Shown: in pieces, positions 14,064 through 42,188 of the stretch | Numbering within the stretch: position 1 is the first letter of the stretch | Layout: every line of letters begins with the position of its first letter | Assembly (NCBI RefSeq): GCF_025399835.1 | Contig: NZ_JAODVR010000001.1 | Span: forward strand, 1,240,001-1,304,000 | Length of the DNA stretch: 64,000 nucleotides | Origin: Haloarchaeobius sp. HME9146 | GTDB lineage: Archaea; Halobacteriota; Halobacteria; Halobacteriales; Natrialbaceae | Reading direction: 5' to 3' | The notes under the pieces: generated by a model | Told to the model about the DNA's origin: nothing | The model's database searches: none | The model's input: the letters and a program-made list of their open reading frames with translations, nothing else | Program-made: the position numbers and the translations under genes

Positions 14064-14660
14064 ATGTCTTCACAGAGCAGTGGCACAGCAGCGCTCGAAG
14101 CCACAGACGGTGATGGAGCGTCGACCGACCGGGCTGAACTCACGCCCGACGAGATATTCCAGCTGTTGACCAACACGAGACGTCGCAGAGCACTCCATGT
14201 GCTGTACGACCTCGAAGAGACGACCGACCTCGGGACGCTCTCGGACGAGGTCGCGGCGATGGAGATGGAGACGCCGGTCGCCGAGGTCTCGTCCGACGAA
14301 CGGCAGCGAGTGTACATCTCGCTCTACCAGTCGCATCTGCCAGCGCTCGCCGAGGCCGACGTCGTGGACTACGACAGCGAGAGCGGGCGGATCGAGCTCG
14401 GTCCCAACTTCGACCAGCTGGTGTCGTACCTGCAACTCGGCGAGTCACCGGACTCGTCGTCGTCGCGGGGCTGGCTCGGATACTACCTCCTCGCGGGCTG
14501 TCTCGGCGTCGTGTTCTGGTCGGTCCACTTCTTCCAGCTGCTACGCATCTCGCCACTGTTCTTGCACGCGGGCTCTATCGTGTCGACCGTCACGGTCGCC
14601 GTCGGCCACCTCGTCTCCCGCGTCCGGGACCTCCTCTCCCAGCAGTCCCAGACCCACTGA
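14064..14660 (+). CDS. DUF7344-type winged-helix regulator with C-terminal membrane helix
   Basis: 198 residues. Residues ~25-130 form the haloarchaeal HTH domain now called DUF7344: LTPDEIFQLLTNTRRRRALHVLYDL, then SDERQRVYISLYQSHLPALAEADVVDYD. Hydrophobic stretches follow at ~150-165 and 168-190 (LGYYLLAGCLGVVFWSVHFF, SIVSTVTVAVGHLV), so the protein is likely membrane-tethered. A paralogue of almost the same length lies at 44191-44790 beside the calcium-repeat regulator. The target genes are unknown. Confidence 0.83.
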   Translation: MSSQSSGTAALEATDGDGASTDRAELTPDEIFQLLTNTRRRRALHVLYDLEETTDLGTLSDEVAAMEMETPVAEVSSDERQRVYISLYQSHLPALAEADVVDYDSESGRIELGPNFDQLVSYLQLGESPDSSSSRGWLGYYLLAGCLGVVFWSVHFFQLLRISPLFLHAGSIVSTVTVAVGHLVSRVRDLLSQQSQTH

Positions 14661-14725
14661 GCCGGACCCGGCCCTAAGATGGTTGGGTTCACGTACTTTG
14701 CATTCGGCCAATAGAGTTATCATCA

Positions 14726-15202
14726 ATGAGCCAGTCCCCGCCCCGCGAAGGTGCAACGCTCGTCGACTGTGCCATCCTCTGGACACACGCGATGCTGGTC
14801 GGCGTCAAAGACCGGTCGACGAACACCGTGGCCCGTCTCCGGTCGGTCGTCGGCACGAGTTCCGACCCCGAATCCGGAGCGACCCCGACGATGGAGCCGT
14901 CGTCGGACGACTGTCCCGATAGCGAGGTCGTCACGACCGACGCCGAACCGCCCATGTGTACGAGCGAGGAGATCCTCGTCGCCATCGACCGCGAGGGCGG
15001 ACGGATGTGGCAGACCGACATCGTCGAGGCGGTGGGCTGTTCGTCCTCGACGGTCAGCCGGCACCTGTCGGCGCTGGAGTCCAAGGGCGAGATCCAGCGC
15101 GTCACGGTCGGCCGCGAGAAGATCGTCGCCCTGCCGGACTACGAGTTCGAGGCGACGAGGACCATGCAGGGCGAGTACGACACCCAGACGCAGGCGGTGT
15201 AG
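14726..15202 (+). CDS. Winged-helix (MarR/HTH-like) transcriptional regulator
   Basis: 158 residues. The N-terminal ~85 are polar and disordered-looking. The C-terminal ~65 form a winged helix: TSEEILVAIDREGGRMWQTDIVEAVGCSSSTVSRHLSALESKGEIQRVTVGREKIVALP. The same domain, with the matching tail SVGRENLITLP, is the cytoplasmic part of the calcium-repeat membrane regulator at 42649-44124. The two are therefore paralogous DNA-binding modules, one soluble and one membrane-anchored. It precedes the beta-helix gene cluster by about 230 nt. Confidence 0.8.
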   Translation: MSQSPPREGATLVDCAILWTHAMLVGVKDRSTNTVARLRSVVGTSSDPESGATPTMEPSSDDCPDSEVVTTDAEPPMCTSEEILVAIDREGGRMWQTDIVEAVGCSSSTVSRHLSALESKGEIQRVTVGREKIVALPDYEFEATRTMQGEYDTQTQAV

Positions 15203-15434: not shown

Positions 15435-17468
15435 ATGCCAGCTCACCGACCGAACGTCAGTCGCAGAACCTATCTCAGAAACGCCGCAGCCGCCGGACTC
15501 GGCGGTGTGACATTCGCAGCCCCGGCCGCTGCCAGGCGAACGTCTGTCTCTCCGACCGTGACTGAACAGACCGTCTACAACGTCGTGGACGAAGGTGCGG
15601 ACCCGACCGGAACCGAACCGGTCGACGACGTCCTGAACCGACTCAAGGGCAACAACGTCACGCTCGAGTTCCCCTCGGGTCGCTACGCCCTGTACCGGCT
15701 GAAGCTCAGCTACCTGGAGAACTTCACCATGCGCGGGCTGAGCGACGACGTCGTCCTCGTCCCGACCGACGATTACTACCGGGAGTGGTGGATCGCCGGC
15801 CACTCGATGCGCAACATCACCTTCGAGAACTTCGTCCTCGACCACACCGCCGAGAACGTCGGTCCCGAGCTCTCCTTCGGCTGCTACGACGGGCTCGTCG
15901 TCAGGAACGTCACGAAACTCGGCTACCACGACACCGACAGCACCGCGTTCGGCTGTCGCATCTACGACGCAGCAGGCTCCGGTCTCGTCGAGAACCTGGT
16001 GATGAACGACGGGAGCATCCCGGTCAAACCCGTGGGGTTCTACACGGACACGACCGGGAAGCTGACCGTCCGAAACTGCCAGATAGCGGGGTTCGGGAAC
16101 AACGGGCTGTACGCCTCGACCGGGCCGGGACCCGTCTGCGTCGAAGGCGGCGTGTTCAAGAACAACGACCGGACGCAGGTCCGGCTCGGCGGGCCCGGGA
16201 GCTACGTCAAGGACGCCGAGATCATCGTCGACACCGACCCTAATAGTTCGGTCGACGGGTGGACACACAACTACCGGGGAATCCGCGTCTCCGACAACCC
16301 GGGGCCGGTCACCGTCGAGAACTGCGACATCAAGCTGTTCCGTGGCCGCGGTTTCGGTGCCATCGTCAACGCGTTCGACGGCGGCTCGCTCACCGTTCGG
16401 GACACCCGCGTCTACCTCTCCGACGAGTACCTGATGTACTGGAGCGACCACACCGCACCCGCCGTCTTCGTCGACTATCCCTCGGACTGGGAGCAGTCCG
16501 GCCAGGGCGGCGAGCGGTTGTTCGACAACCTCTCCATCACCGGGGACGGGCAGGCCGACGGCGAGTACCCAGTCGTCCTGCTGTTCCGGGGCAACAGCAC
16601 CTTCCAGAACTGCTGTCTCCACCAGACGGGGACCGACCGCTCGGGCTTCGAGACGTGGGACCACGAGACCCTGGAGCTCGCCACCCTCCCGGACCCGACC
16701 GACGTCGTGGATTCGACGGTCGACGTGCCCGGCGAGGTCGCACGCGGGAGCGTCACGCTCTCGAACATCACGACCGAGGGCACCTGTCCGCTCCCCACCG
16801 GGCTCGGGGACAGCGCGGGGCCGACGTTCGATGCTGGACCGACCGCGACGGACACGGTCGACGACGACGGCACGACCGGGGATTCGGCGGTCGATGCTGG
16901 TGATACGGTCCGGGTCGAAGCGACAGTTTCGGACGCCAGTGGAGTGGCGTCGGTCGTGGCCGACGCGAGTTCCTTCGGCGGGCCGGGCTCTCTCGACATG
17001 GTCGATGACGGGAGCGGGACCTACGCCGGGGAGTTCGTCGTCGGCGCGACGACTTCGGTCACGGTCGCGGTCGGCGAGAGCGCGACCATCCCCGTGACGG
17101 CGACCGACGCGTCGACGGGTTCGAACACGATGACGGCACAGACCAACGCGTTGACCGTCGAGGACAACAGCGGTGGCACCGTCGACCCCACCGTCAGCAT
17201 CGGTCGAGTCTGGAACGAGAACACGAAGAACCCCCACGCGCAACTGCGCGTCGAGTACTACTCGGAGAACGCGGCGTTCGTCGAACTGACCGTGACGCGG
17301 GATGATACGGGCGAGACGAAGAGTTGGACCGACACGACCCCCGGAAGCGGCCAGACCGAGACGAGTCCGTCCGGCGTCTTCGACTTCCACAAGGGCCAGG
17401 GCAGCGCGTACACGGTGACGGCCAGCACCGACGGCAGTGGCAGCGACACCGTCACCTTCCAGTCGTAG
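15435..17468 (+). CDS. Tat-exported right-handed beta-helix surface protein with Ig-like C-terminal domains
   Basis: 677 residues. The twin-arginine signal (SRRTYLRNAAAAGLGGV) is followed by a parallel beta-helix (~45-460). It has characteristic coils such as MRNITFENFVLDHT, LVVRNVTKLGYHDTDSTAFG, GFGNNGLYASTGPG and GVFKNNDRTQVRLG, resembling pectate-lyase-like carbohydrate-active folds. Residues ~465-677 are two beta-sandwich domains. This differs from its two paralogues (17613 and 23684), which end in a thioredoxin-like domain instead. A polysaccharide ligand or substrate is inferred from fold and locus. ATG 15435 is close to a TTTATTATG run. A second TATA-like TAATAAAG (15369-15376) fits better with a short leader. 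Confidence 0.86.
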   Translation: MPAHRPNVSRRTYLRNAAAAGLGGVTFAAPAAARRTSVSPTVTEQTVYNVVDEGADPTGTEPVDDVLNRLKGNNVTLEFPSGRYALYRLKLSYLENFTMRGLSDDVVLVPTDDYYREWWIAGHSMRNITFENFVLDHTAENVGPELSFGCYDGLVVRNVTKLGYHDTDSTAFGCRIYDAAGSGLVENLVMNDGSIPVKPVGFYTDTTGKLTVRNCQIAGFGNNGLYASTGPGPVCVEGGVFKNNDRTQVRLGGPGSYVKDAEIIVDTDPNSSVDGWTHNYRGIRVSDNPGPVTVENCDIKLFRGRGFGAIVNAFDGGSLTVRDTRVYLSDEYLMYWSDHTAPAVFVDYPSDWEQSGQGGERLFDNLSITGDGQADGEYPVVLLFRGNSTFQNCCLHQTGTDRSGFETWDHETLELATLPDPTDVVDSTVDVPGEVARGSVTLSNITTEGTCPLPTGLGDSAGPTFDAGPTATDTVDDDGTTGDSAVDAGDTVRVEATVSDASGVASVVADASSFGGPGSLDMVDDGSGTYAGEFVVGATTSVTVAVGESATIPVTATDASTGSNTMTAQTNALTVEDNSGGTVDPTVSIGRVWNENTKNPHAQLRVEYYSENAAFVELTVTRDDTGETKSWTDTTPGSGQTETSPSGVFDFHKGQGSAYTVTASTDGSGSDTVTFQS

Positions 17469-17612: not shown

Positions 17613-19616
17613 ATGACAGATTCTTCCCCCACTTCCGACCGACCGACTGCGATGAGCCGCCGCGACTATCTCCGTGCCGCGGCCGTCACCGGCATCGCTA
17701 GCGTTACCTTCACGGGTACAGGCGCAGGTGCAGAGTCCGGTACCAGCGCGACCGCGACGGAGCCGACCGTCTACAACGTGGTCGAGGAGGGTGCCGACCC
17801 GACCGGCCAGGAACCCATCGACCCGGTCCTCGGCCGCCTCGAACACGACGACGCCATCCTCGAGTTCCCCGATGGACGGTACCAGATCCAGGACTTCAAC
17901 ATGTACGGGCGCGAGAACTTCACACTGCGCGGCATCGGCGAGAACGTCGTGCTGGTGCCGAGTCCGGACTACAACCGCGACTACTGGCTCACCGGCTGGC
18001 ACATGCGGAACTTCACCTTCGAGAACTTCACCATCGACAACTCCGCGACAGACTGCGGCCCCAGTATCTCCTTCGGCTGCTACGACGGGCTCCTCGTCCG
18101 GAACGTCACGAAGGTCGGCTACCACGACACCGACAGCACCGCGTTCGGCTTCTACATCCACGACGCCACCGGCTCCGGCCTCGTCGAGAACCTCGTCATG
18201 CGCGACGGTTCCATCCCGGTCGCCCCCGTCGGTGTCTACACCGCCTCCACCGGCAAGCTCGTCTTCCGGAACTGCGAGATAGAAGGCTTCGGGAACAACG
18301 GGCTGTACGCCTCGACCGGAACCGGCCCCATCGGCGTCGAAGGCGGCGTGTTCAAGAACAACGACCGGACCCAGGTCCGGCTCGGTGCACCCGGCAGCTA
18401 CGTCAAGGACGCCGAGATCGTCGTCGACACCAGCCCGGACAGCCCCCGGACGGGCTGGACGCCCAACTACCGCGGTATCCGCATCTCGGACAACCCGGGA
18501 CCGGTGACCGTCGAGAACTGTGACATCACGATGCGCCGGGGCCGGGGCTTCGGCGGCATCGTCACCGCGTTCGACGGCGGCTCCGTCACGGTCCGTGACA
18601 CCCGCATCCACGTCGGCGAGGACTACTGGATGTACTGGAGCGACCACACGGCCCCCGCCGTGTTCGCCGACGAAGCGACCGACATAACGCAGTCGGGTGG
18701 CGGCGGTGAGCGCCTCTTCGAGAACGTCTCCATCACCGGTAGCGGCGAGGCCGACGGCGAGTATCCCGTCGTCCTCCTGAAGCGTGGCAACAACACCTTC
18801 CGGAACTGCTGTCTCCAGCAGACGGGGACCGACCGCTCGGGCTTCGAGACCTGGAACAGCGATCACCTCCCCGCCGACCTCGGCGACCCGACCACCGTCA
18901 CGGACTCGACGGTCAACGTCCCCGGCGAGCTGTCCCGGGGGAACGTCACCCTCGACAACATCGCGACGGGCGGCACCTGCCCGGTCCCCGCCGGCGTCGA
19001 GCCGATTCCGGACTCCAGCATCGACGCGCACGTCCCCCTCGCCGAGGTGCCGCTCCCGTCGAACGCGAGCCGCCTGACGTACCCGACGATGGGCACCTCG
19101 TCCGAGAACCCGACCCTGCGAGTGTACGGGAACTTCGTCTACCCGAACACGCGGGAGTTCGTCTTCGGCAACCTCCGGCACGTCATCGACGAGTTCGTCG
19201 TCACCGGTCGCCTGAACGTCGAGTTCCGGTCCGTCGCCTACCCCGACGGCCACTACCTCAACAGCGTCGAGGGTGAGGAGCGACTCGCCAAGCTGGCGGT
19301 CGGCGTCTGGGACGTCAACAACTGGGAGAACTACTGGGGCGTCTTCGAGTACCTGTTCGCGAACCAGGGCCAGCTCTCCTGGCAGACCTGGGACGAGGCG
19401 TCCTCGATGCTCCAGGACGCGGGTGTCGAGCGCGTCTACGGCTGGATTCCCTCGCTCGTCACCGACGGCGAGTACGACGACGAGGTGTACGCGTCACGGG
19501 TACAGGCCGCCGAGGACGGCATCATGTACGTCCCACAGCTCGTCCTGAACGGCGAACTGGCCGGGGCGAACTGGGACACCGACAAGCTGCTGGGCTGGCT
19601 GGACCGGCGCGTCTGA
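17613..19616 (+). CDS. Tat-exported beta-helix protein fused to a cysteine-less thioredoxin-like domain
   Basis: 667 residues from ATG 17613. An upstream in-frame TTG at 17562 lies only ~12 nt after the TATA box and cannot be the start. The order is twin-arginine signal (SRRDYLRAAAVTG), beta-helix (~45-455) closely matching the gene upstream, linker, then a ~175-residue DsbA/thioredoxin-like domain (from PTMGTSSENPTLRVYGNF). Where DsbA-like proteins have the redox CxxC after the first strand, this one reads NFVYPNTREF, so both cysteines are absent. The later helix and cis-Pro strand (MYVPQLVLNGEL) are kept. The fold is thus likely used for binding, not disulfide exchange. A tandem repeat derived from the stop region follows. 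Confidence 0.87.
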   Translation: MTDSSPTSDRPTAMSRRDYLRAAAVTGIASVTFTGTGAGAESGTSATATEPTVYNVVEEGADPTGQEPIDPVLGRLEHDDAILEFPDGRYQIQDFNMYGRENFTLRGIGENVVLVPSPDYNRDYWLTGWHMRNFTFENFTIDNSATDCGPSISFGCYDGLLVRNVTKVGYHDTDSTAFGFYIHDATGSGLVENLVMRDGSIPVAPVGVYTASTGKLVFRNCEIEGFGNNGLYASTGTGPIGVEGGVFKNNDRTQVRLGAPGSYVKDAEIVVDTSPDSPRTGWTPNYRGIRISDNPGPVTVENCDITMRRGRGFGGIVTAFDGGSVTVRDTRIHVGEDYWMYWSDHTAPAVFADEATDITQSGGGGERLFENVSITGSGEADGEYPVVLLKRGNNTFRNCCLQQTGTDRSGFETWNSDHLPADLGDPTTVTDSTVNVPGELSRGNVTLDNIATGGTCPVPAGVEPIPDSSIDAHVPLAEVPLPSNASRLTYPTMGTSSENPTLRVYGNFVYPNTREFVFGNLRHVIDEFVVTGRLNVEFRSVAYPDGHYLNSVEGEERLAKLAVGVWDVNNWENYWGVFEYLFANQGQLSWQTWDEASSMLQDAGVERVYGWIPSLVTDGEYDDEVYASRVQAAEDGIMYVPQLVLNGELAGANWDTDKLLGWLDRRV

Positions 19617-19627
19617 GCGGGTGTCGA

Positions 19628-19702
19628 AACGGCACGTCTGAGCAGAGGGAGAAACGACGCGTCTGAGCCGAGGCAGAAACGGCGCGTCTGAACCGAGGCC
19701 GA
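19628..19702. repeat. 3 x 25-bp tandem repeat just after a stop codon
   Basis: Three imperfect 25-bp copies start at 19628, 19653 and 19678, each built around CGCGTCTGAGC with AACGGC at the start and GAGG..GA at the end. A partial fourth copy includes the last codons and stop of the upstream gene (GGCGCGTCTGAGC). The array looks like slippage duplication of the 3' end of that gene. It has no spacers, so it is not CRISPR. Confidence 0.85.
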
Positions 19703-19859
19703 AACGAGCCTCGCCGCCGTGAGCACGGTGACGGGGTTCGTCTCGGGTAGCGTGCAGTGGGCTGTGTTATCATCTTTCTTCCTCCCGTCTCCGGGACTAC
19801 TTAAACGGTGTCCTGCTGAAGTATCGAATCGATGGGAGTCCCCGGCGTAGCTATAGTCG

Positions 19860-21464
19860 ATGAAACAGACGAACTCCACCTCCCCCGGTCTCCTCTCGCG
19901 GCGGAACTTCCTGCGTGGCACAGCAGCGCTCGGCATCGGTGCGGCTCTTCTCGGTACCTCGGCGGCCTCGGCAAGCGCATCGGCTGGTCCCACCCGAACG
20001 TCCTACGAGATTCTCGAGGGCACGTACTACGAGACGACCGTCTACGTGTACGACTCCGGCGTCGCCGGCCCGACCACGATGGTCGTCGGTGGCATCCACG
20101 GCGACGAGAAGTCCGGCTACCTCGCGGCCGACCAGATCGCCGAGTGGTCCGTCACGACGGGCAAGCTCGTCGTCATGCCCCGCGCGAACGTCGACGCCAT
20201 CGCCCGGGACGTCCGCCCGTACGACCCCGACCTTAACCGGCAGTTCCCGCCGACCGGCGGTACCTGCCTCTCGTCGCTCGCCCGTAACATCTGGAACGTC
20301 GTCGAGGCCGTCGACCCCGACTGGGTGTTCGACCTCCACAGCTCGCGTGGCATCTACAAGTCCGGCGACGGCGGCGTCGGCCAGGCGCTGTTCCCGACCT
20401 GGACCGACCCGGCGCGGTCGTACGGTGAGCAGACCGTCGCCGCCCTCAACGACCGATTCGGGCTCTCGGGCGACGTGGCCTACCGGATGGGCAACACGCT
20501 CGACGCCGACCGCCCGATGCTCATGCACCGGGTCGCGGGCATGCTCGACCGCCCCGGCTTCATCTGCGAGACGACCGAGAAGATGCCCCTCGACGAGCAG
20601 ACCCAGTGGCACCTGTTCACCGTCGAGCACGTGATGGCCCAGTACGGCCACGTCCGCGGAACCCCGGAGACGACCACGCGCTCGACGGTCGACTTCCACG
20701 CTGGAACCCACACCTTCGACGACTACTGGCAGTCGTTCGAGTTCGACCATTCGCTGTCGTACCCCGCCATCGTCGCTCCGTCGCTCTCGTACGCCGGGCC
20801 GGACCCCGCACACCCGCGCATCACCGACGACGACAGCAACGGCGCGACGGCCCGCGTCGAGGAGTGGGCCTACCTGAACGACCGCCACTACCAGGAGTCC
20901 GCGGGCGTGCTGGCGTTCCCCGCGAACACCGTCACCCGGTCCGACGACGGGAAGCGCATCCAGGCGAGCCGCCAGAACGTCGGCACGTCCTGGGAATATA
21001 TCGAGTTCGAAGAACCGTTCGAGGCGACGCCCGTCGTCCTGGCCGCACCCCAGAGTGACTGGCACGACACCCCGGTCATCGCTCGCGTCCGCAACGTCAC
21101 CCGCTACGGCTTCGACGTGCGACTCCACACCGAGGAAGGTGGCCGTGACCTCTCGTGGTCCGAGCAAGAGCGCGTGGGCTGGGTGGCGCTCGAAGAGGGT
21201 CGTGGGACCCTGAACGGCCGCAACTACGAGGTCGGCACGAGACGCATGGACGAGGAATGGCGATGGATCGACTTCGCCGGCTCCTACGAGAACCCGGTGT
21301 TCCTCGCCGCGCCGACGACCTACGCGGGCTGGAACCCCGTCACCGTCCGATACGAGGACCTCTCGGGGTCGCGTGTGAAGGCGTTCCTGCAGGAGGAGAC
21401 GAGCGCCGACGCCGAGACCGGCCACCCGGCCGAGACGGTCGGCTACTTCGTCATCGACGGGTGA
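19860..21464 (+). CDS. Tat-exported M14/aspartoacylase-type zinc hydrolase with C-terminal lectin-like domain
   Basis: 534 residues with a twin-arginine signal (SRRNFLRGTAALG). Residues ~55-290 match the succinylglutamate desuccinylase/aspartoacylase branch of M14: GGIHGDEKSG supplies H80 and E83, DLHSSRG supplies H160, and ICETTEK offers a catalytic Glu. The C-terminal ~150 residues contain two repeats of the type WEYIEFEEPFEATPVVLAAPQ / WRWIDFAGSYENPVFLAAPT, an H-type-lectin-like beta-sandwich. This suggests an extracellular amidase or deacylase targeted to glycans. The promoter (CTTAAACGGTGTCC near 19801) resembles those of the genes at 17613 and 25835. An ATG at 19832, at leaderless distance, is out of frame. 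Confidence 0.85.
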   Translation: MKQTNSTSPGLLSRRNFLRGTAALGIGAALLGTSAASASASAGPTRTSYEILEGTYYETTVYVYDSGVAGPTTMVVGGIHGDEKSGYLAADQIAEWSVTTGKLVVMPRANVDAIARDVRPYDPDLNRQFPPTGGTCLSSLARNIWNVVEAVDPDWVFDLHSSRGIYKSGDGGVGQALFPTWTDPARSYGEQTVAALNDRFGLSGDVAYRMGNTLDADRPMLMHRVAGMLDRPGFICETTEKMPLDEQTQWHLFTVEHVMAQYGHVRGTPETTTRSTVDFHAGTHTFDDYWQSFEFDHSLSYPAIVAPSLSYAGPDPAHPRITDDDSNGATARVEEWAYLNDRHYQESAGVLAFPANTVTRSDDGKRIQASRQNVGTSWEYIEFEEPFEATPVVLAAPQSDWHDTPVIARVRNVTRYGFDVRLHTEEGGRDLSWSEQERVGWVALEEGRGTLNGRNYEVGTRRMDEEWRWIDFAGSYENPVFLAAPTTYAGWNPVTVRYEDLSGSRVKAFLQEETSADAETGHPAETVGYFVIDG

Positions 21465-21471
21465 GGCGGAC

Positions 21472-23505
21472 CTACGCGGTCGACGACGGCACGTCGATGC
21501 TGTTCTGATTCTCGTCGCCACCGTCGTCGGCGTCGGGGTCCTCCCCGACGCACATCGTCACCTCGCCGTTCGCGTACAGCATGCTTCGCTCCGGGCCACA
21601 GACGTCGTGCTTCTGGACGGGTATCAGCCCGGACTGGTCGCCGACGCGGAAGATGGGCGCACCCTCGGTGTGGTAGTCGCGGTACACCACCACGTCGTTG
21701 ACCGTCTCGCTCGTGTTCGGGTTCACGAACAGCATCGTCGCCCGGTCGTTCACCTCCGTTCTGCGGTACACCTCGGTGTAGGGCGAGTCGGTATACACCG
21801 GCTGGTCACCCGAGACCATGTTGCCGGTGCTCCGCATCCCCGTGAGTTCGGCCTGGTTGTACCCGAAGCGGGGCTGGTCGCTGTCGAACACCGGCGCGTC
21901 GAGCGTCGCGTCGGTCGAGACGAACATCGCGCCCGGGTAGCCCACCGCGAGCAACAGGAACACCATCGTGGCGACCTTCGGGTTCAGGTTCTTCGCGGCG
22001 TAGCCGAGCCCGAGTGCGCCGAGGATGGCCATCGGGAGGTACATGAACGCGAACCAGCGCCCGGGCAGGAACAGCCCGACACCCATGATGGGCAGGAACA
22101 GCGCGAACAGGATCATCACCGTCACGACGAAGATGAGCAACAGTCGCGCCAGCGAGGTCCGGTCGCTCTTGAGCGCGTACAGACAGCCGAGGACGGTGAT
22201 GCCGAGCAGGAGCATGAACCCGAGCACGTCGATGTACGGGATGAACTGGTCGACGATGGAGGGCGTCTGCTCGCCGATGCCCCCACCACCCGACCCGGGC
22301 GTCGACTGCAGGTTGAACAGCCCGGCGGACTCCACCAGCGTCGAGCGGAGCTTCGCGATCATCACCTCGGTGAACGTCTCGCCGCGGTACGGCGTCAGGC
22401 TCCAGACGAGGGTGAGCAGCCCGGTCTGGAACACGAGGAGCCCCGAGAGGTCGCGGGTGCTCACGTCGGGATAGAGCAGGTCGCTGGTGACGAAGTACTG
22501 GACCACGGTCGCGGTGCCGATGGTCACCAGCATGATGAACGCCGACACCTGGTGGGACAGGCTCAGGCCGACGATGAAGAACACCAGCAGGCCGATGTCC
22601 CGCGGGTCGCGGTCGTTCAACACCCGGACGAAGTAGTAGAACCCGGCGACGAACAGGATGACCCCGAGACTCGTCGGGACGAGGTGGATGCTCCACTTGA
22701 TGACGTGGTCGCTGAAGGCGAACAGTGCCGTGGCGGCGAGCGCCCAGCGGACGGGGACGAACGACCGTCCGGCCACGTAGACCAGTGGCAGCGTCAACAC
22801 CATCGCCGCGCCCATCGAGAGGTAGAGCGCGGACTCGAGCGCCGTCCCGGCCATGAGCGAGGTCGCGACCACCAGCAGGTGGTACAGGGGTGACGCGTAG
22901 TACTTCGCGCCGCGGGACGCGTGCTCGCGCATGACCGAGAGGCTGCCCGTCTCTCGGAGGTCGACCGCGAGCTTGGTGATGTGCGTCCAGATGTCGATGC
23001 CGATGAACCCGGCACTCGTGAAGTGGGCGGTGAACCGGATCGCGGCCGCGAGCGCGAGAATCTGGACGAGCACCAGCCCCGGCACGAGGTCTTCGTCGGC
23101 CGCGAAGAAGACCTGGAGGAACACCGAGAGCGCGGTGAGTGCGGTGACGGCGTGGAACACCGGTGAGCGCTCGCCGGACAGCGTGGCGACGACGAGCGCC
23201 ACGGCGATACCGAGGAAGGTCACGGCTGGTGTGAGTCTGGCGACCGGTGTCGGGAGCGTCGCCAGACTGTGGCCGAGCCCGCTCCTGCGGCCGTGGGTGT
23301 TCTTCGACGCTCGCCACGCGAAGAGGTAGAGGATGCAGGCCGTCGCCAGCACCAGCGGGAGCGTCTCGGCGAACAGGTGCGAGAGGACGAAGCGGAGCGG
23401 GAACAGCAAGACCGCGAGCAGCAACCCGATGATCGCGACGTCGCGGTCGAACGGGCGGTCGTGTATCCAATCGACGACTCGACTCCCCACAGACGGCGTA
23501 CTCAT
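21472..23505 (-). CDS. Polytopic membrane protein of the surface-glycan locus (GT-C-like)
   Basis: 677 residues from ATG 23505. The start is fixed by a promoter element 29 nt upstream; a TTG at 23517 would extend it by four residues. About 12-14 membrane helices run from residue ~25 to ~545. A polar C-terminal domain (~545-677) follows, with sequence such as YTDSPYTEVYRRTEVNDRATMLFVNPN. A large multi-pass N-terminal part with an extracellular soluble tail is the architecture of GT-C glycosyltransferases and polymerases. A DIWTH motif near residue 175 lies in the position of an acidic catalytic loop. No family name can be assigned with certainty. It is convergent with the zinc hydrolase (8 nt apart). 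Confidence 0.75.
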   Translation of the reverse strand: MSTPSVGSRVVDWIHDRPFDRDVAIIGLLLAVLLFPLRFVLSHLFAETLPLVLATACILYLFAWRASKNTHGRRSGLGHSLATLPTPVARLTPAVTFLGIAVALVVATLSGERSPVFHAVTALTALSVFLQVFFAADEDLVPGLVLVQILALAAAIRFTAHFTSAGFIGIDIWTHITKLAVDLRETGSLSVMREHASRGAKYYASPLYHLLVVATSLMAGTALESALYLSMGAAMVLTLPLVYVAGRSFVPVRWALAATALFAFSDHVIKWSIHLVPTSLGVILFVAGFYYFVRVLNDRDPRDIGLLVFFIVGLSLSHQVSAFIMLVTIGTATVVQYFVTSDLLYPDVSTRDLSGLLVFQTGLLTLVWSLTPYRGETFTEVMIAKLRSTLVESAGLFNLQSTPGSGGGGIGEQTPSIVDQFIPYIDVLGFMLLLGITVLGCLYALKSDRTSLARLLLIFVVTVMILFALFLPIMGVGLFLPGRWFAFMYLPMAILGALGLGYAAKNLNPKVATMVFLLLAVGYPGAMFVSTDATLDAPVFDSDQPRFGYNQAELTGMRSTGNMVSGDQPVYTDSPYTEVYRRTEVNDRATMLFVNPNTSETVNDVVVYRDYHTEGAPIFRVGDQSGLIPVQKHDVCGPERSMLYANGEVTMCVGEDPDADDGGDENQNSIDVPSSTA

Positions 23506-23533
23506 TGTCTGGCCCAACAGGACGTGCCCTCAT

Positions 23534-23553
23534 TGTTATCAGCCGGTTAAGCC
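23534..23553 (-). promoter_or_regulatory. Surface-locus promoter element (minus-strand copy)
   Basis: Reads GGCTTAACCGGCTGATAACA on the minus strand. Its TATA-like end GATAACA lies 29 nt before ATG 23505. It differs from the copy before the glycosyltransferase at 54335 in only two positions. Confidence 0.7.
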
Positions 23554-23561
23554 CGGAGACC

Positions 23562-23581
23562 GGCTGAACCGGTGGTTTACG
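23562..23581 (+). promoter_or_regulatory. Surface-locus promoter element (plus-strand copy, inverted to previous)
   Basis: Reads GGCTGAACCGGTGGTTTACG on the plus strand. Together with the minus-strand copy it forms an inverted repeat (CCGGTTAAGCC ... GGCTGAACCGG, 10 of 11 positions paired) over 23544-23572. It would serve the third beta-helix gene. Its TATA-like half is weak. Confidence 0.5.
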
Positions 23582-23683
23582 CCCTCCGAAACAGTGTCGA
23601 ACGGTCGGCAAACGGTGCAAATGCCGCAACGAACGGCAACGGCCTCGCGGATTGAAGTGCGATACCCGAGGTGTGTTGGGGTG

Positions 23684-25591
23684 ATGTCTAAGCGGATGAC
23701 GAACCATGGGAGCGTGGATCGACGAACGGTTCTAACACTTCTCGGTGGGGTCGCTGGCGGGACCGCGATCTCTGGCACTGTCGCTGCCGACGATGGCGAC
23801 TACGGGAACGTGGTCGACATCGTCGAGGCAGGGGCGGACCCGACGGGAGCGGAACCGATAGACGACGTGTTCGGGGCGGTCGAGGACGACGATACCCTCA
23901 TCGAGTTCCCGGACGGTCGGTACAAGATAAACCAGCTCAACCTCTACGGTCGCGCCAACCTCGCGCTGCGTGGTGTCGGCGACGACGTGACGCTCGTGGC
24001 CGACGAGAACCACGGTGACGACTACTGGATCGCCGGGTCCAGTACGCGCGACCTCGTCTTCGAGAACTTCACCCTGGACCACACCGCAGACGGAATCGAC
24101 CCGTCGGTCGAGTTCGGCAGCCACGACGGACTCGTCGTCAGGGACGTGGTGAAGAAGGGGTCACAGGACGGCGACAATACGGCCTTCGGCTTCCGGACGT
24201 ACCACGACTGGAGCGAGACGGTCGTCGAGAACCTCCAGCTCCCGGACGGGAGCGACTCCGTCGGCCCCGTCGGTATCTGGGTGGATGGCGACGGGACGAC
24301 CACGTTCCGTGACTGTCGCGTGGAGGACTACGGGAACAACGGGCTGTACGCGTCGTGGTCGAACGGCGCGGTACAGGTCGAAGGTGGCGTGTTCAAGAAC
24401 AACGACCGGGCACAGGTCCGACTCGGGAGTGCGGGGAGCTACGTCAACGAGGCGGACGTCGTGGTCGACGACCCCTCGGGTGACGACCCCTGCACCGGCG
24501 TGCGTATCTCTGACGGGCTCGGCCCCGTCACCGTCTCGAACTGTGACATCTCGATGACCAGCGGTCGCGGAAGCGGTGGTGTGGTCTGTGCCGAAGACGG
24601 CGGCCACTTCGTGGTGAAGGACTCGCGAATCCACATCGGTTCGGACTACACGGCCAACAAGTCCGGCGGCACGCGAACGTCACCGGGCGTGTTCGTCGAC
24701 GACGCGCCGGACGCCCCGGACCTCGACCACGACATCGTCGGGACCGCCATCACCGGCGGCGGCGACTACTACCCGGCCGTCCTCGGCAAGCGAGACGACG
24801 TCAACGTGAAACAGTGCTGTATCGACTGGGAGGGCCCGGACGGCATCTGGTTCCAGGACACGACGGCGAACGACATCCGGGACACGAACATCACGGTCAG
24901 CGGGGAGGAGTTCGTCGGCGACGCGGAGGTCTCCGGTCTCACGACCGGTGACTCGTGCCCGCTCCCCGACTTCGGTGACGGTGGTGGCAGCAGCGGTGAC
25001 GACCGGCCCAGCGCCGTCGCGGACGCCCCGATTCCGCCGAACGCCAGCCGGCTGCCGTACCCGACGATGGGGACCGACGCCGACAACCCGACGCTGACCG
25101 TCTACGGGAACTTCGTCTACCCGAACACGCGAGAGTTCGCGCTCGACAACCTCCCCGCCATCCTCGAGGAGTTCGTCGAACCCGGCCACCTCAACGTGGA
25201 GTTCCGGTCCATCGCCTATCCCGACGACCACTACCTCAACTCCGTCGAGGGCGAGGAACACCTCGGACAGCTCGCCCTCGGTGCCTGGGACAAGGACTGG
25301 CAGAACTACTGGGAGGCGTTCGAGTACCTCTTCGAGCACCAGGGGGAGTTCGACTGGCAGTCCTGGTCCGCGGCCAGCAACCTCCTGCAGAACGCCGGGG
25401 TCGAGGACGTCTACGGCTGGATTCCGGTTCTCGCCGCCGACGACGAGTACGCCGACGAACTCGTCGAGTCGCGGGTCGACGCTGCCGACGCCGACCTCGA
25501 GTACGTCCCACAGATAGAGTTCGAGGGCGACCTCGCGGGTGCGAACTGGGACACCGGCCACCTGCTCCGCTGGATCAGCAACCGCATCTGA
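23684..25591 (+). CDS. Tat-exported beta-helix protein with cysteine-less thioredoxin-like domain (third paralogue)
   Basis: 635 residues from ATG 23684 (MSKRMTNHG). In-frame ATGs at 23621 and 23696 are alternatives; the former would put a long basic N-region before the signal. A twin-arginine-like VDRRTVLTLLGGVAGG leads into the beta-helix (~45-400). This shares coils with the other two paralogues (GRANLALRGVGDDV, NNGLYASWSNGAVQVEGGVFKNNDR). The C-terminal ~175 residues repeat the DsbA-like fold with NFVYPNTREF where the CxxC should be. The Gly/Ser linker GDGGGSSGDDR separates the parts. It is more divergent than the 15435/17613 pair. Confidence 0.85.
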   Translation: MSKRMTNHGSVDRRTVLTLLGGVAGGTAISGTVAADDGDYGNVVDIVEAGADPTGAEPIDDVFGAVEDDDTLIEFPDGRYKINQLNLYGRANLALRGVGDDVTLVADENHGDDYWIAGSSTRDLVFENFTLDHTADGIDPSVEFGSHDGLVVRDVVKKGSQDGDNTAFGFRTYHDWSETVVENLQLPDGSDSVGPVGIWVDGDGTTTFRDCRVEDYGNNGLYASWSNGAVQVEGGVFKNNDRAQVRLGSAGSYVNEADVVVDDPSGDDPCTGVRISDGLGPVTVSNCDISMTSGRGSGGVVCAEDGGHFVVKDSRIHIGSDYTANKSGGTRTSPGVFVDDAPDAPDLDHDIVGTAITGGGDYYPAVLGKRDDVNVKQCCIDWEGPDGIWFQDTTANDIRDTNITVSGEEFVGDAEVSGLTTGDSCPLPDFGDGGGSSGDDRPSAVADAPIPPNASRLPYPTMGTDADNPTLTVYGNFVYPNTREFALDNLPAILEEFVEPGHLNVEFRSIAYPDDHYLNSVEGEEHLGQLALGAWDKDWQNYWEAFEYLFEHQGEFDWQSWSAASNLLQNAGVEDVYGWIPVLAADDEYADELVESRVDAADADLEYVPQIEFEGDLAGANWDTGHLLRWISNRI

Positions 25592-25834: not shown

Positions 25835-27136
25835 ATGGTCGAAGACAGAACGAGACGCCGAACCCTGAAGGCCCTCGGTTTGAGTGCAGTGACCGGACTC
25901 GCAGGGTGTATGAACACTGGCGAACAGAACACGACAGGAACGACCACCACGACCCGGTCCACGTCGGGCACGCCGACCGGGACCGCCACCGCCCGCGAGC
26001 AGACGGACACGACCGATTCCGGCGAGCAACGTGAGAAACCCGAAGACGTCGTCGACGACTTCGAGGACCTCTCCACGTGGACCGTCAAGAACGGGAAGCT
26101 CACCGCGATGACGGAGGGCTCCTACAAGGGGAGCCAGTCGGCCGTCATCACGCGCCAGGACGGCGAGCCCGTCATCGAGCGCGAGATCGAGACCGGCGTC
26201 GGCGGGTCGAACCTCTCCGTGGCGATTAACCTCGACGCCAGCAAGCACGCCGTCTTGCAGGTGACCCTCCTCAACGGCAACAACCAGAACTCGGTGCAGT
26301 ACGCCGAGTCCGTCCGCTCGTCCACGAGCGGGTTCTGGCAGCGGCTCGACCTCGGCGCGACCGGGGTCACGGGGCTGCCCAACCTGAAGAACATCACCAA
26401 GATCCGCATCCGCGTCAAGGGTGCCGGGAGCGGCGGGAAGGTCCGCATCGACGACCTCCGAAAGGTCCCCTCCCCCGACAAGGGCTACGTCGCGCTTGTG
26501 TTCGACGACGCACAGCGCTCTGACTACACGAAGGCCTTCCAGACGCTGAAGCAGTACGACATCCCGGCGACCTCCGCCCTCGTCACGAACCACGTCGGCG
26601 ACGACGGGTTCCTCAACATGAAGCAGATCGAGGAGATGAAGGCGGCGGGCTGGGAGTTCGCCTCGCAGACGGCGAGCCACGCCAACATGCTCAACGCCTC
26701 GCGGCTGCAGGCCGAACGGGAGGTCGTCGGCTCGAAGGAGTGGCTCCTCGACCACGGGTTCGAGAAGGGTGCCAAGAGCTTCACCTACCCGTACGGTCTC
26801 TACAACGAGCAGATCACGAACTTCGTCAGCAAGCACTACGAGATGGGCTTCGGGTTCTTCAGCACCCGGAACGCGGCCTCCGGGTACATCACCGACCCGA
26901 TGACCATCTCGCGGGGTGACGGCCGACACATCGAGCAGGCGAAGTCGATGGTCGACCTGGCGCACCTCTACAACGACCTCGAGGTCATCACCTTCCACGG
27001 TATCGACCGCAAGGGCGAACTGGACGTCACCGGCGACCAGTTCGAGGACTTCGTCTCCTACCTCGACAACAGCAACGTCGAACCGATCACCCTCTCACAG
27101 ATCCCCAACAAGTTCAAGCCAGAAGACGGCTGGTAA
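25835..27136 (+). CDS. Polysaccharide-deacetylase-family (NodB-like) Tat lipoprotein with altered metal site
   Basis: 433 residues. A twin-arginine signal with lipobox (RRRTLKALGLSAVTGLAGC, Cys25) is followed by a Thr-rich linker, a beta-sandwich module (~70-212, DDFEDLSTWTVKNGKL...) and the NodB-like barrel (~215-433). Motif 1 is FDDA at 223-226. Motif 2, normally (S/T)HxxxH, is SQTASH at 277-282, so the first metal-binding His is replaced by Gln278. Motif 3 is FTYPYG and the last motif is ITFHGI. It probably acts on surface polysaccharide outside the cell, but activity is uncertain. The ATG is ~27 nt after CTATAATATTAC, so the mRNA is leaderless. Confidence 0.87.
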   Translation: MVEDRTRRRTLKALGLSAVTGLAGCMNTGEQNTTGTTTTTRSTSGTPTGTATAREQTDTTDSGEQREKPEDVVDDFEDLSTWTVKNGKLTAMTEGSYKGSQSAVITRQDGEPVIEREIETGVGGSNLSVAINLDASKHAVLQVTLLNGNNQNSVQYAESVRSSTSGFWQRLDLGATGVTGLPNLKNITKIRIRVKGAGSGGKVRIDDLRKVPSPDKGYVALVFDDAQRSDYTKAFQTLKQYDIPATSALVTNHVGDDGFLNMKQIEEMKAAGWEFASQTASHANMLNASRLQAEREVVGSKEWLLDHGFEKGAKSFTYPYGLYNEQITNFVSKHYEMGFGFFSTRNAASGYITDPMTISRGDGRHIEQAKSMVDLAHLYNDLEVITFHGIDRKGELDVTGDQFEDFVSYLDNSNVEPITLSQIPNKFKPEDGW

Positions 27137-27299: not shown

Positions 27300-27878
27300 T
27301 CAGTCGCGACGACGACCGGCCACGGCGCGGTAGAGCCCGGTCGCGACCGGGAAGCCATCGACGACCCACAGGAGGCCCACGGCGGCCACCAGGGTCAGCT
27401 CGAACAGCAGGATACCTGAGAGCCCGCCGGTGAGCAGCTCGTGGAGGAAGCGCAGGAAGTAGCGCGAGGCGTTGGCGACGATGCCGCTGGTGGGTGCCGC
27501 CTCGCGCTCGAGGACGGGCCAGAGCACGGCGTGGACCCAGAACCCGTCACCCCGGATGGCCGGGTAGACGATGTCGCCGAGGAGGTGCGAGCCGTAGCCG
27601 ACGGCGAACGCCCCGAACAGGTGGGGTCGGTCGACCCGGCGGGAGAGGAGCGACGCAGCGGCGAGCAAGACGGGGGCGGCGAAGACGGAGTGGGCGACCG
27701 AGTAGCCGGTCGCGGTGATGTCGAACGTCCACGAGAGCGGCTTGTCGACGAGGTCGGGCAGGAGCGTCGCGAATCCGGCCACGGCGACCGCGTCACCACG
27801 TGGTGCAGCCCCCGTCGTGAAACGGACGGAGAGCGAGTACAGTACGTATCCGAACGCGAGGTGTTCCCATGGCCACAT
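27300..27878 (-). CDS. YdjM/DUF457-type membrane metal-dependent hydrolase
   Basis: 192 residues. The N-terminal MWPWEHLAFGYVLYS and then FATLLPDLVDKPLSW, GYSVAHSVF and GYGSHLLGDIVYP carry the His/Asp pattern of the membrane-bound metal-dependent hydrolase family (YdjM/DUF457). There are about four hydrophobic segments. The substrate is unknown. It is divergent in function from its glycan neighbours but common in haloarchaeal surface loci. It ends 163 nt from the deacetylase stop, convergently. Confidence 0.75.
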   Translation of the reverse strand: MWPWEHLAFGYVLYSLSVRFTTGAAPRGDAVAVAGFATLLPDLVDKPLSWTFDITATGYSVAHSVFAAPVLLAAASLLSRRVDRPHLFGAFAVGYGSHLLGDIVYPAIRGDGFWVHAVLWPVLEREAAPTSGIVANASRYFLRFLHELLTGGLSGILLFELTLVAAVGLLWVVDGFPVATGLYRAVAGRRRD

Positions 27879-27971
27879 CGATAGATGGTCTCTTGGTCTG
27901 CTGTCGGCAGCCGGGTCGTCGATGACCGTCCCCGGGCGACGGTGCTGGTGTGTCGGTCGAACGCGACCGTC

Positions 27972-28895
27972 TCACGTGGTCCGGAGGGTGACCACCCGGT
28001 ACGCGGTTTCCCGGGACGGGTCGTCGGGCGCGTCGCCCCTGTAGAGCATGACGACGACGCGAACGTCGTCACCGCTCGGCGGCGAGACGCTCACCGTCTC
28101 GCTGACCCGCTCGCCGTCCGCGGCGGTGAGGGTCGTGCGGCCGAGTTCACGCTGGGCCTCGACGACGGTGGCTCCGTCGGCGTTCTCGCTGACCCGCTGG
28201 ACGGTGGTGACCATCGTGTACTCCTGCTCGCTCCCCTCGTGGTTCTCGACGAGGAGGGTCGGGTTCTCGCCACTCTGGAGCACCGCGGCCTCCTGGACGC
28301 TCTGGCCCTCCGTGTCCACGGCGAACTCGGTGAACCCGCTGTCGGTGGGGCCGTAGGCGACCGCGAAGCCGACGCTGCCCAGCGCCAGGAGCACGCTCAC
28401 CACGAGCGCCACGTTGTAGACCGTGGTCGGGGAGCCCCCGTCGCGGAACGCGCTCTCCGTCTTCGTGAACAGGACCGACCTGATGGGGACCGACGGCGCG
28501 TAGCGGTCGGCGGCTGGCACTCGCCAGCGTCGGAAGAGGCTGAGGACGGCGAAGAAGCCGGTGATTCCGGCCACTCCGACGAGGATGGGAAGGAGCGTGA
28601 TTCCCCAGGGGGTGAAGTTCGCCACGAGGGCGACCAGTGCGACGATGGAGATGCTCAATGCGACCGTGAGCCCGAAGCGTTCCGCCCCGAGCAGCCCGCC
28701 ACCGTCCGGCGGTCGGTCCGTCCGCCCCCGGGGGAACAGCACGACCGAGATGGTGTATCCGGGCAGGAAGAGGACGAACAGGGCGGTCGCGAGGAGCCGG
28801 GCGACCGGGACGTTCAGGAAGATCGAGAACGCCCCGAGCGCGGCCAGCGCGAGGACGACGAAGGCATCCAGGAACCACAGTTTCGTGCGACTCAT
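27972..28895 (-). CDS. DUF1616-type membrane protein
   Basis: 307 residues. Membrane helices lie at ~9-27, 32-55, 75-95, 100-120 and ~162-182. The extracellular C-terminal beta-domain (~190-307) contains VENHEGSEQEYTMVTTVQ and VRVVVMLYRGDAPDD. The N-terminal LATALFVLFLPGYTISVVLFPR is the signature stretch of DUF1616, a family of haloarchaeal/methanogen surface-polymer loci of unknown function. A promoter element lies 27 nt before the ATG, so it is probably co-regulated with the glycan genes. Confidence 0.82.
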   Translation of the reverse strand: MSRTKLWFLDAFVVLALAALGAFSIFLNVPVARLLATALFVLFLPGYTISVVLFPRGRTDRPPDGGGLLGAERFGLTVALSISIVALVALVANFTPWGITLLPILVGVAGITGFFAVLSLFRRWRVPAADRYAPSVPIRSVLFTKTESAFRDGGSPTTVYNVALVVSVLLALGSVGFAVAYGPTDSGFTEFAVDTEGQSVQEAAVLQSGENPTLLVENHEGSEQEYTMVTTVQRVSENADGATVVEAQRELGRTTLTAADGERVSETVSVSPPSGDDVRVVVMLYRGDAPDDPSRETAYRVVTLRTT

Positions 28896-29446: not shown

Positions 29447-29737
29447 TCACGACGTCAGCTCGGGTTCGATGTGTTCGCGTTCCCATCGGTAGCGTTCGCG
29501 AATCGCCTCTGCACCCTCTTCGGATATCTCGTAGAAGTTGGTCCGACCGTCGATGCAGCCCTTCTCGACCAGTCCTTTCTCGACGAGCGTGTCCAGATTC
29601 CGGTAGAGACGGCCGTGTGGGAGCGACGTGTCGAGGGAGTCCTCGATCTCTTGTTTCAGGTCTCGACCACTCGGCTCGTCCATCTTGGTGAGCACGACGA
29701 GCAGGTTGTGTTGGAATCCGGTCAGGTCTGTCCTCAT
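29447..29737 (-). CDS. PadR-family winged-helix regulator
   Basis: 96 residues from ATG 29737. The fold is DLTGFQHNLLVVLTKMDEPSGRDLKQEIEDSL then LPHGRLYRNLDTLVEKGLVEKGCIDGRTNFYEISEEG. It shows the PadR pattern: recognition helix with LYRNLDTL, a wing with YEISEEG, and an ending helix for dimerisation. It is a likely local regulator, divergently oriented to GlmM with ~215 nt between starts. Confidence 0.85.
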   Translation of the reverse strand: MRTDLTGFQHNLLVVLTKMDEPSGRDLKQEIEDSLDTSLPHGRLYRNLDTLVEKGLVEKGCIDGRTNFYEISEEGAEAIRERYRWEREHIEPELTS

Positions 29738-29954
29738 GTCTCTACCACACTGTTCCGACCACCTACACAAATACCCGCTCGGCCGTTGCCGAACCTACAC
29801 CATCGATAATCCGCGCAACTGTCCACCATGTCGTGTTTTGACACTGTATAATTCTGGTATGCTGGGGCGCGAATCCGGTGTTCGAGCGGCGATTCGTACT
29901 GTCTCGTCGCTTATGGCTCCTATATTTATCACGGGCCCGTCCGTCCCCTCCGGC

Positions 29955-31298
29955 ATGTTCGGTACCAGCGGGATTCGCGGTGAGTTCGGGACGGAAGTGA
30001 CGTGTGACCTCGCGCTCTCTGTCGGGCGCGCAGTCGCCTCTGCTGGCTACGAACGTGTGGTCGTCGGCCGTGACGCCCGCGAGAGCGGTGAACCGCTCCA
30101 GCAGGCGGTCGTCGCGGGCCTCCGCGAGTGCGGGGCGAACGTCGTCGACGTCGGACTCGCGGCGACACCGACGGTCGCACGGTCCATCGCTCGTCACGAC
30201 GCGGACGCGGGCGTGGTCATCACCGCGTCCCACAACCCACCGCAGGACAACGGCATCAAACTCTGGAACCCGTCGGGGCAGGCGTTCGACACCGACCAGC
30301 GCGAGGAGATAACCCGGCGGGTCCGCGAGGACGACGTCGACGTGGCCGACTGGGCGGGCGTGGGCGACAGCGAACGGGACGAGACGGCTGTCGCTGCACA
30401 CGAGCGCGCCCTCCGCGACGCCGTCAGCATCGACCGCGAGCTCTCGGTCGTCGTCGACGCCGGGAACGGCCCCGGTGGGCTCACCGCGTCGGTCCTCCAC
30501 GACCTCGGCTGTGACGTCCAGACGCTCAACGGGCAGCCCGACGGCCGGTTCCCCGGCCGACCCAGCGAGCCGACGGCGGAGAACTGCGAGAGCCTGACGC
30601 GACTCGTCGCGGAGACGGGAGCCGACCTCGGCATCGCCCACGACGGCGACGCCGACCGGATGATGGCCGTCACCGAGGACGGCGAGTTCCTCGCGGGCGA
30701 CGTCCTCCTGGCGCTGTTTGCCCGGGAGGCCGTCGGCGAGGGCGACCGGATCGCCGCCCCACTCGACACCAGCCTCGCCGTCGACGATGCGCTCTCCCCC
30801 CTGGGTGCGACGGTCGAACACACGAAGGTCGGGGACGTGTTCGTCGCCGAAGCCGCCACCGACCCCGCCGTCACCTTCGGCGGCGAACCCAGCGGGGCGT
30901 GGATCTGGCCCGACGAGACCCTGTGTCCCGATGGCCCACTGGCCGCGTGCAAACTCGTCGAACTCGTCGCCCGGAACGACTCGCTCGGCGCGCTCGTCGA
31001 CTCGGTGGACACCTACCCCATCCGCCGCGACAGCATCGAGACGCCAGAGAAGGAGGCCGCCATGCGTGAGGTCGAGTCGGCCATCCGCGCGGAGTACGAG
31101 ACGGTGAACGACCTCGACGGGATCCGCGTCGACACCGACGACGGCTGGTTCCTCGTCCGCCCCAGCGGCACCCAGCCCCTCGTCCGCATCACGGCCGAGG
31201 CGCGGAGCGACGAGCGCGCCGACGACCTGTTCGAGTACGCCCGCCAGCTGGTCACGGACGCGACGAGCGCGACGGCCGCGACGACGAGCCAGGACTGA
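29955..31298 (+). CDS. glmM: Phosphoglucosamine mutase (alpha-D-phosphohexomutase family)
   Basis: 447 residues. The phosphoserine loop is TASHNPP with Ser92, and the Mg2+ loop is DGDADR at 230-235. The sugar-binding GGEPSG and the C-terminal phosphate loop RPSGTQPLVRI are all in place. It converts glucosamine-6-P to glucosamine-1-P, between GlmS and GlmU, both encoded in this window. The ATG at 29955 follows CTATATTTATCAC by ~27 nt, so it is leaderless. A longer in-frame extension upstream to 29628 crosses that promoter and is rejected. Phosphomannomutase activity cannot be excluded by sequence; the neighbours favour GlmM. Confidence 0.9.
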   Translation: MFGTSGIRGEFGTEVTCDLALSVGRAVASAGYERVVVGRDARESGEPLQQAVVAGLRECGANVVDVGLAATPTVARSIARHDADAGVVITASHNPPQDNGIKLWNPSGQAFDTDQREEITRRVREDDVDVADWAGVGDSERDETAVAAHERALRDAVSIDRELSVVVDAGNGPGGLTASVLHDLGCDVQTLNGQPDGRFPGRPSEPTAENCESLTRLVAETGADLGIAHDGDADRMMAVTEDGEFLAGDVLLALFAREAVGEGDRIAAPLDTSLAVDDALSPLGATVEHTKVGDVFVAEAATDPAVTFGGEPSGAWIWPDETLCPDGPLAACKLVELVARNDSLGALVDSVDTYPIRRDSIETPEKEAAMREVESAIRAEYETVNDLDGIRVDTDDGWFLVRPSGTQPLVRITAEARSDERADDLFEYARQLVTDATSATAATTSQD

Positions 31299-33725: not shown

Positions 33726-33824
33726 ATGTCCCGGCCCTCCATCACGAACCGGCCCCCCACCGGGAACCAGCCCAGCAGCCCGACCCCGGGCACCGACACC
33801 GGAACTCCAACACATGAGTCGTAA
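33726..33824 (+). CDS. Possible 32-codon linker ORF between glmU and flippase
   Basis: ATG 33726 begins 4 nt after the glmU stop and ends with TAA 33824, overlapping the flippase start (33814) by 11 nt. The product is Pro/Thr/Ser-rich (SRPSITNRPPTGNQPSSPTP). It could carry ribosomes from glmU to the flippase start. Coding is uncertain, since open frames of this length are common at this GC content. Confidence 0.25.
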   Translation: MSRPSITNRPPTGNQPSSPTPGTDTGTPTHES

Positions 33825-42185: not shown

Positions 42186-42188
42186 AGT

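Follow-up and report, generated by a model that had tools for sequence, protein, structure and literature searches.

A DsbA-like domain without its catalytic cysteines, fused to beta-helix proteins in a predicted haloarchaeal polysaccharide cluster

What does a disulfide-forming domain do once its catalytic thiols are gone? The question is raised by two genes of Haloarchaeobius sp. HME9146 located within a stretch of 64,000 nucleotides (contig NZ_JAODVR010000001.1, positions 1,240,001 to 1,304,000; the whole stretch is here denoted the window, and positions are counted from its first base). Each gene encodes a beta-helix protein that ends in a DsbA-like domain without cysteines. The features of the two fusion proteins are as follows:

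17613..19616, + strand: fusion protein 1, 667 amino acids, with a twin-arginine (Tat)-type signal (SRRDYLRAA), a beta-helix and a cysteine-less DsbA-like domain
17766..18990, + strand: beta-helix domain of fusion 1 (PF13229, 4.6e-10; AlphaFold2 model; Foldseek)
19026..19613, + strand: DsbA-like domain of fusion 1, without cysteines (AlphaFold2 model; BdbD Z 20.9; profile)
19137..19151, + strand: former CxxC site of fusion 1, reading VYPNT (from sequence)
19533..19535, + strand: cis-proline codon of fusion 1 (YVPQ), conserved position (invariant in 66/66 relatives)
23684..25591, + strand: fusion protein 2, 635 amino acids, with a twin-arginine signal, a beta-helix and a cysteine-less DsbA-like domain
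23798..24985, + strand: beta-helix domain of fusion 2 (PF13229, 1.2e-8)
25007..25588, + strand: DsbA-like domain of fusion 2, without cysteines (62-63% identity to the fusion 1 domain)
25115..25129, + strand: former CxxC site of fusion 2, reading VYPNT (from sequence)
25508..25510, + strand: cis-proline codon of fusion 2 (YVPQ), conserved position (from sequence)

A reading made from the sequence alone had picked out both open reading frames, their cysteine-less DsbA-like tails and the motif VYPNTREF, and our analysis confirmed all three. The tails are domains of about 190 residues each, and both carry GNFVYPNTREF at the position of the DsbA CxxC. Each protein has seven cysteines in its beta-helix part and none in its DsbA-like domain, indicating that cysteine is not simply avoided; general avoidance was ruled out as the cause of the loss. 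A sequencing or frame artefact was ruled out as well, the motif being present in both paralogues and both same-genus orthologues, in frames that are open throughout.

The C-terminal domains have the fold and ancestry of DsbA

Structure prediction and profile searches demonstrated that the C-terminal domains have the DsbA/BdbD fold and ancestry and that the catalytic CxxC is gone. The AlphaFold model of the domain, built with 13 sequences (predicted local distance difference test, pLDDT, 85.9; predicted template modelling score, pTM, 0.86), shows a thioredoxin fold with a DsbA-type helical insert. BdbD was its top Foldseek match (E=2.9e-9, TM 0.80 by target), and VIA-align gave Z 20.9 and a root-mean-square deviation of 2.1 over 169 residues against the same protein. 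A profile of 66 haloarchaeal relatives, searched against the Protein Data Bank (PDB), matched many DsbA structures, finding Bacillus subtilis BdbD at E=4e-34 and S. aureus DsbA at about 3e-20, and 63 of the 66 relatives match Pfam Thioredoxin_4 at E<=0.01. Chance resemblance to DsbA was ruled out by profile, fold and intermediates together.

Taken alone, the window domain misses the Thioredoxin_4 (PF13462) gathering cut-off (17.7 vs 23.2 bits), which the relatives L013 and L014 pass; calling it DsbA by eye, as the sequence-only reading did, was a good call, and the thioredoxin-like fold on which that call hung was obtained by structure prediction. Searched as a single sequence, the full protein had no match in the PDB. 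The best named family match of the two domains was NCBIfam NF041057 (1.2e-7 and 2.4e-5; 31.5 of 190 bits, below the curated cut-off), the Rcas_1661 family of thioredoxin-like (seleno)lipoproteins, from which the window domains differ in having neither cysteine nor selenocysteine and in showing no sign in their sequence of being lipoproteins.

BdbD (PDB 3eu3/3eu4), a DsbA-family thiol oxidase of B. subtilis, shares with the window domains fold, ancestry, export and the cis-proline position. It differs in its active CxxC, where the window proteins read VYPNT, and in that the window domain forms the C-terminal part of a beta-helix protein. Thiol-disulfide oxidase activity is not expected of a VYPNT domain that has no thiols. 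The attachment to a carbohydrate-type beta-helix, also proposed from sequence, was upheld: PF13229 scored 39.8 bits in fusion 1 and 35.2 bits in fusion 2, both above the cut-off of 25.9, and the full-length AlphaFold model of fusion 1 (pTM 0.61) agrees.

The cysteines were probably lost in steps

To place the two domains among their relatives we sampled 391 haloarchaeal genomes, and in 94 of them the domain has a relative (E<=1e-8); limited candidates were scored per genome and the genome counts are lower bounds. In the active-site census of the 66 aligned relatives, 13 have both cysteines (CPYC type), 39 have the first only (CPYT or a like motif) and 14 are without the first. The last group comprises four VYPNT copies (the window pair and two same-genus orthologues), a third congener reading GPYT, one of two fusion copies of Halobacterium bonnevillei, which reads EDSED, the domains of seven fusions with an AstE/AspA-type hydrolase, and one further domain. 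No alignment column other than the cis-proline position is the same in 66/66 relatives, the 14 that lack the first cysteine among them.

A tree computed without the motif columns splits CPYC from all other forms (support 88/99, not starred). The direction of loss rests on an outgroup argument because the root was placed at the midpoint. If CPYC is ancestral, as in BdbD, the second cysteine would have been lost once; the first appears to have been lost at least four times, and three-state parsimony needs five changes. The alignment and tree point to the order CPYC, then CPYT, then none, with the resolving cysteine lost before the nucleophilic one. The loss seen in the sequence-only reading is real, and it is no peculiarity of two genes but belongs to a repeated, stepwise loss across the family. 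The thiol-free H. bonnevillei copy is very divergent and sits on a long branch.

With CPYC, CPYT and thiol-free forms in one family, the relatives form a living series that shows the order of loss. H. bonnevillei carries both a CPYT and a thiol-free beta-helix fusion in one organism, a natural before-and-after pair, and the series as a whole offers a natural set for testing what a DsbA groove does without redox chemistry. On its contig NZ_WUUU01000009.1 (L094) the CPYT fusion and the site-erased fusion flank a GT39-like gene.

The next kin of the fusions in the tree are monothiol CPYT secreted proteins of haloarchaea, annotated 'thioredoxin domain-containing protein'. They belong to the same family and differ in keeping the first cysteine and in being mostly stand-alone, one group having long acidic tails that end in cysteine. 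This group of CPYT-type secreted proteins is the stand-alone monothiol group nearest to the fusions. The tails are 80-166 residues long and often about half acidic, with a cysteine 1-4 residues from the C-terminus in 16/19 tailed proteins (L006, L008-L011, L015-L021, L031, L033, L060 and L085); tailed monothiol proteins of other groups have no end cysteine. The end cysteine may be a tethered resolving cysteine or an attachment site.

The fusion is rare and its domain is under constraint

Homologues of the beta-helix at E<=1e-30 occur in 221 of the 391 genomes. Its fusion to a DsbA-like domain, which the sequence-only reading had thought unusual and worth seeking in other haloarchaea, was found as seven proteins in four genomes: that of the window, two congeners and H. 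bonnevillei (both counts are lower bounds). A profile search of the genome contigs returned no loci with a two-row alignment and 11 loci with a 13-row alignment. One scan of viral contigs with fusion 1, which covers near relatives only, gave no match, and a literature search on beta-helix/DsbA-like fusions found nothing relevant. A Natrononativus plasmid match with 94% coverage was considered as a further fusion and ruled out, since it is annotated as a 1443-base gene followed by an acetyltransferase.

The ratio of nonsynonymous to synonymous substitution (dN/dS; NG86, against same-genus orthologues in G234) came to 0.38 and 0.53 in the DsbA-like domains, compared with 0.28 and 0.20 in the beta-helices. 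These values argue for constraint on the DsbA-like domains, weaker than that on the beta-helix. Of 196 positions, 94 do not vary among the four VYPNT copies. The longest invariant run, YGNFVYPNT, is the old active-site loop; a run this long occurs in 11% of shuffles, and this evidence alone is weak for that reason.

Within glycan clusters, genes of the DsbA-like family also keep company with a membrane glycosyltransferase, of which the window holds one copy:

21472..23517, - strand: GT39/PMT_2-like membrane glycosyltransferase (PMT_2 5e-4; 20.7 of 26.1 bits, sub-threshold)

The homologue of this protein in Haloferax mediterranei is annotated GT39. Among 49 genomes with both genes, the distance between them is <=20 kb in 23 (0.94 expected) and <=5 kb in 13 (0.24 expected); the genomes are related, so these counts are not of independent events. 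The GT39-like gene is found by position beside beta-helix genes without a DsbA-like domain as well (for example in G310, G279, G041, G059 and G114), indicating that the domain is not needed for the pairing. The beta-helix and the GT39-like glycosyltransferase may be the core pair.

A non-redox binding module is the favoured explanation

Both cysteines are lost and the proline on the substrate side is kept, which suggests that a disulfide enzyme has been reused as a binding part of cell-surface sugar machinery. According to a published atlas, conservation of the cis-proline exceeds that of CxxC and the residue likely belongs to the polypeptide-binding site (PMC2757866); in DsbA, it is the loop with the cis-proline that puts the cysteine of the substrate in position (PMC13269488). 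We consider it probable, though well short of certain, that the DsbA-like tail is a non-redox binding module that uses the old substrate groove to position a secreted, glycan-processing beta-helix and that evolved by stepwise thiol loss. The fusion products would be secreted parts of a cell-surface polysaccharide cassette. The beta-helix would contact or process the polymer that the GlmS/GlmM/GlmU, flippase and GT39-like genes next to it produce, and the groove around the cis-proline would hold a polypeptide segment, be it a surface protein, a glycoprotein acceptor or a partner enzyme, thereby keeping the beta-helix at its place of work. The resolving cysteine would have gone first (CPYC to CPYT) and the nucleophilic cysteine repeatedly afterwards, among forms fused to secreted modules.

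The sequence-only reading had spoken of an extracellular binding module. The first half fits the Tat-type signals; binding is suggested by the cis-proline, purifying selection and module swaps. Cysteine-less thioredoxin folds are known as a class, some of them catalytic (PMC2757866), and it is the family, the fusion and the setting that look new.

Several points weigh against a binding module. The fusion is patchy, with none in three of the six sampled genomes of the genus, and the DsbA-like domains evolve faster than the beta-helices, which also fits relaxed constraint. The cis-proline has a structural role too. The proximity data cover the whole family, mostly monothiol members, and not only the cysteine-less fusions.

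A more specific form of the binding reading, which we regard as unlikely, would make the domain an acceptor-presenting accessory of the GT39-like glycosyltransferase that binds a polypeptide and offers it to the membrane enzyme, as the thioredoxin-fold subunits Ost3/Ost6/TUSC3 do for oligosaccharyltransferase. The strong proximity to one membrane glycosyltransferase, which in H. bonnevillei stands between the two fusion genes, speaks for such a role. So does TUSC3, whose active site adjoins a peptide groove and which, beside a glycosyltransferase, has functions that do not depend on oxidoreductase activity (PMC7563561). Ost3/Ost6/TUSC3 are likewise extracytoplasmic thioredoxin-fold domains linked to a multi-pass glycosyltransferase, a comparison of how they work only; they differ in belonging to another thioredoxin branch, in their active CXXC and in being membrane-anchored. 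However, TUSC3 function requires its CXXC, beta-helix genes adjoin this glycosyltransferase without any DsbA-like domain, and many family members, such as the Natronococcus group, do not lie near it. It is doubtful, too, that a haloarchaeal DsbA lineage became an accessory, partly non-redox domain of a surface glycan system centred on the GT39-like protein; it would then correspond, among prokaryotes, to the thioredoxin-fold subunits of oligosaccharyltransferase, with a groove that recognizes without thiols.

About as doubtful is the notion of a decaying relic, in which the thiols became useless after fusion and the domain persists as a functionless spacer. Several independent losses of the first cysteine, a dN/dS above that of the beta-helix, the very divergent H. 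bonnevillei copy and the patchy distribution would all fit decay, but dN/dS lies well under 1, every copy has an intact domain and the cis-proline is invariant. Moreover, both paralogues and both orthologues retain VYPNT, although no more than 94 of 196 positions are the same in all four.

We think it quite improbable that the domain serves as an intramolecular chaperone for its own beta-helix. Some beta-helix cysteines are invariant within the window-type subfamily, and DsbA chaperone activity extends to a cysteine-free substrate (PMC8386657). That activity depends on oxidation state, however, which is impossible for a cysteine-less domain, and close beta-helix homologues, including the neighbour at 15435, manage without one. 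Least probable of all is a cryptic chemistry in which the domain would still be an enzyme through Tyr or Thr of YPNT or a thiol borrowed from a partner: catalytic cysteine-less thioredoxin folds and the strict retention of VYPNT in four sequences lend it some colour, but other cysteine-less relatives read LSEAS, GSSYS, EDSED and GPYT at the site, leaving no common catalytic residue.

The beta-helix and its exchangeable tails

The beta-helix that the binding module would position matched RbmB lyase, AlgE epimerase, PfbA adhesin and GH55/GH87 in Foldseek. RbmB, the AlgE C5-epimerases and PfbA share the right-handed beta-helix fold with it; identity is low (10-14%) and the likeness is at the level of fold. 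Several of the positions that do not vary among 38 homologues are arginines, which would go well with an acidic polymer. The fold matches and the conserved polar positions revealed no catalytic site. Two genes near the fusions bear on the exchange of parts:

15435..17468, + strand: beta-helix paralogue in which an immunoglobulin (Ig)-like tail (by inspection only) replaces the DsbA-like domain
19860..21464, + strand: Tat-type AstE/AspA-type zinc hydrolase with an H-lectin-like C-terminus (sub-threshold; PF24827, 3.8e-12)

Elsewhere, beta-helices of the subfamily end without a tail, in an Ig-like tail, in an H-lectin-like tail (L152) or in beta-sandwich repeats (L151, L165, L167). The H-lectin-like tail shares 47% identity with the one on L014, a monothiol DsbA-like protein, and 34% with the C-terminus of the AstE/AspA-type protein of the window, and the beta-sandwich tail recurs on the DsbA-like proteins L013, L031 and L033. 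The hydrolase gene, which sits between the two fusion genes, encodes a protein 45% identical to the hydrolase domain that is fused to a DsbA-like domain. Such fusions of an AstE/AspA-type and a cysteine-less DsbA-like domain occur in Haloferax and others; both DsbA active-site cysteines are gone and the hydrolase motifs look intact. In Haladaptatus an AspA-type gene adjoins a monothiol DsbA-like gene. Beta-helix, DsbA-like, AspA-type, lectin-like and sandwich parts are best taken together as a single set of secreted modules.

One of these fusions, E6P09_RS17210 of Hfx. mediterranei ('Succinylglutamate desuccinylase/aspartoacylase family protein'), is likewise secreted, with a cysteine-less DsbA-like domain, and its gene belongs to a glycan cluster that also has GlmU and a GT39-like gene. 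It differs in that its partner is a zinc hydrolase, not a beta-helix, and in having lost the first cysteine separately. Gene deletion is routine in Hfx. mediterranei, making the fused form testable there. Another DsbA-AspA fusion without active-site cysteines (L051, 12479-13924) ends in CC. In the window hydrolase the catalytic motifs GGIHGDE and DLHSS look intact, and an N-acyl group on the polymer of the cluster is a possible substrate.

The surrounding glycan cluster

By its gene content the window is a predicted cell-surface polysaccharide (glycan) cluster, which also encodes a PGA_cap-type protein and glycosyltransferases. Further genes are:

14064..15202, + strand: DUF7344 and DUF7343 (winged-helix) proteins
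25835..27136, + strand: polysaccharide deacetylase-like protein with a lipobox-like motif and altered metal-site motifs (PF01522, 4e-21)
27300..28895, - strand: YdjM-family and DUF1616 membrane proteins, conserved in the cassette
29628..31298, + strand: GlmM, phosphoglucosamine mutase (TIGR03990, 3.5e-150, above cut-off)
32541..33722, + strand: archaeal GlmU-type nucleotidylyltransferase/acetyltransferase (TIGR03992, 1.3e-158)
33814..35448, + strand: Wzx-type polysaccharide flippase (PF13440, 1.3e-12)
40138..42351, - strand: open reading frame containing GlmS (start MCGIIACVG inside the frame)

The same set is found on pHME505 of Hfx. mediterranei, with the cysteine-less DsbA-AspA fusion, GlmU, GlmS, GT39, two nucleotide sugar dehydrogenases, DUF1616, YdjM and two beta-helix genes. 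The exopolysaccharide of this organism contains mannose and sulfated N-acetylglucosaminuronic acid (PMC5467301), and we infer that the pHME505 cluster makes it. The fusions add named, testable parts to haloarchaeal surface polysaccharide clusters, whose secreted components mostly lack an assigned function.

The deacetylase-like protein at 25835-27136 reads FDDA and SQTASH, its distant relative L038 reads FDDG and SHTHSH, and the same-genus copy reads FDDG and SQT. One metal-binding histidine of the window protein seems to be gone, so its activity is doubtful. Homologues of DUF7344/DUF7343 stand beside monothiol DsbA-like genes in G376 and G214, and DUF7344 also in Halobaculum halophilum; upstream of the cassette, the pair are possible dedicated regulators.

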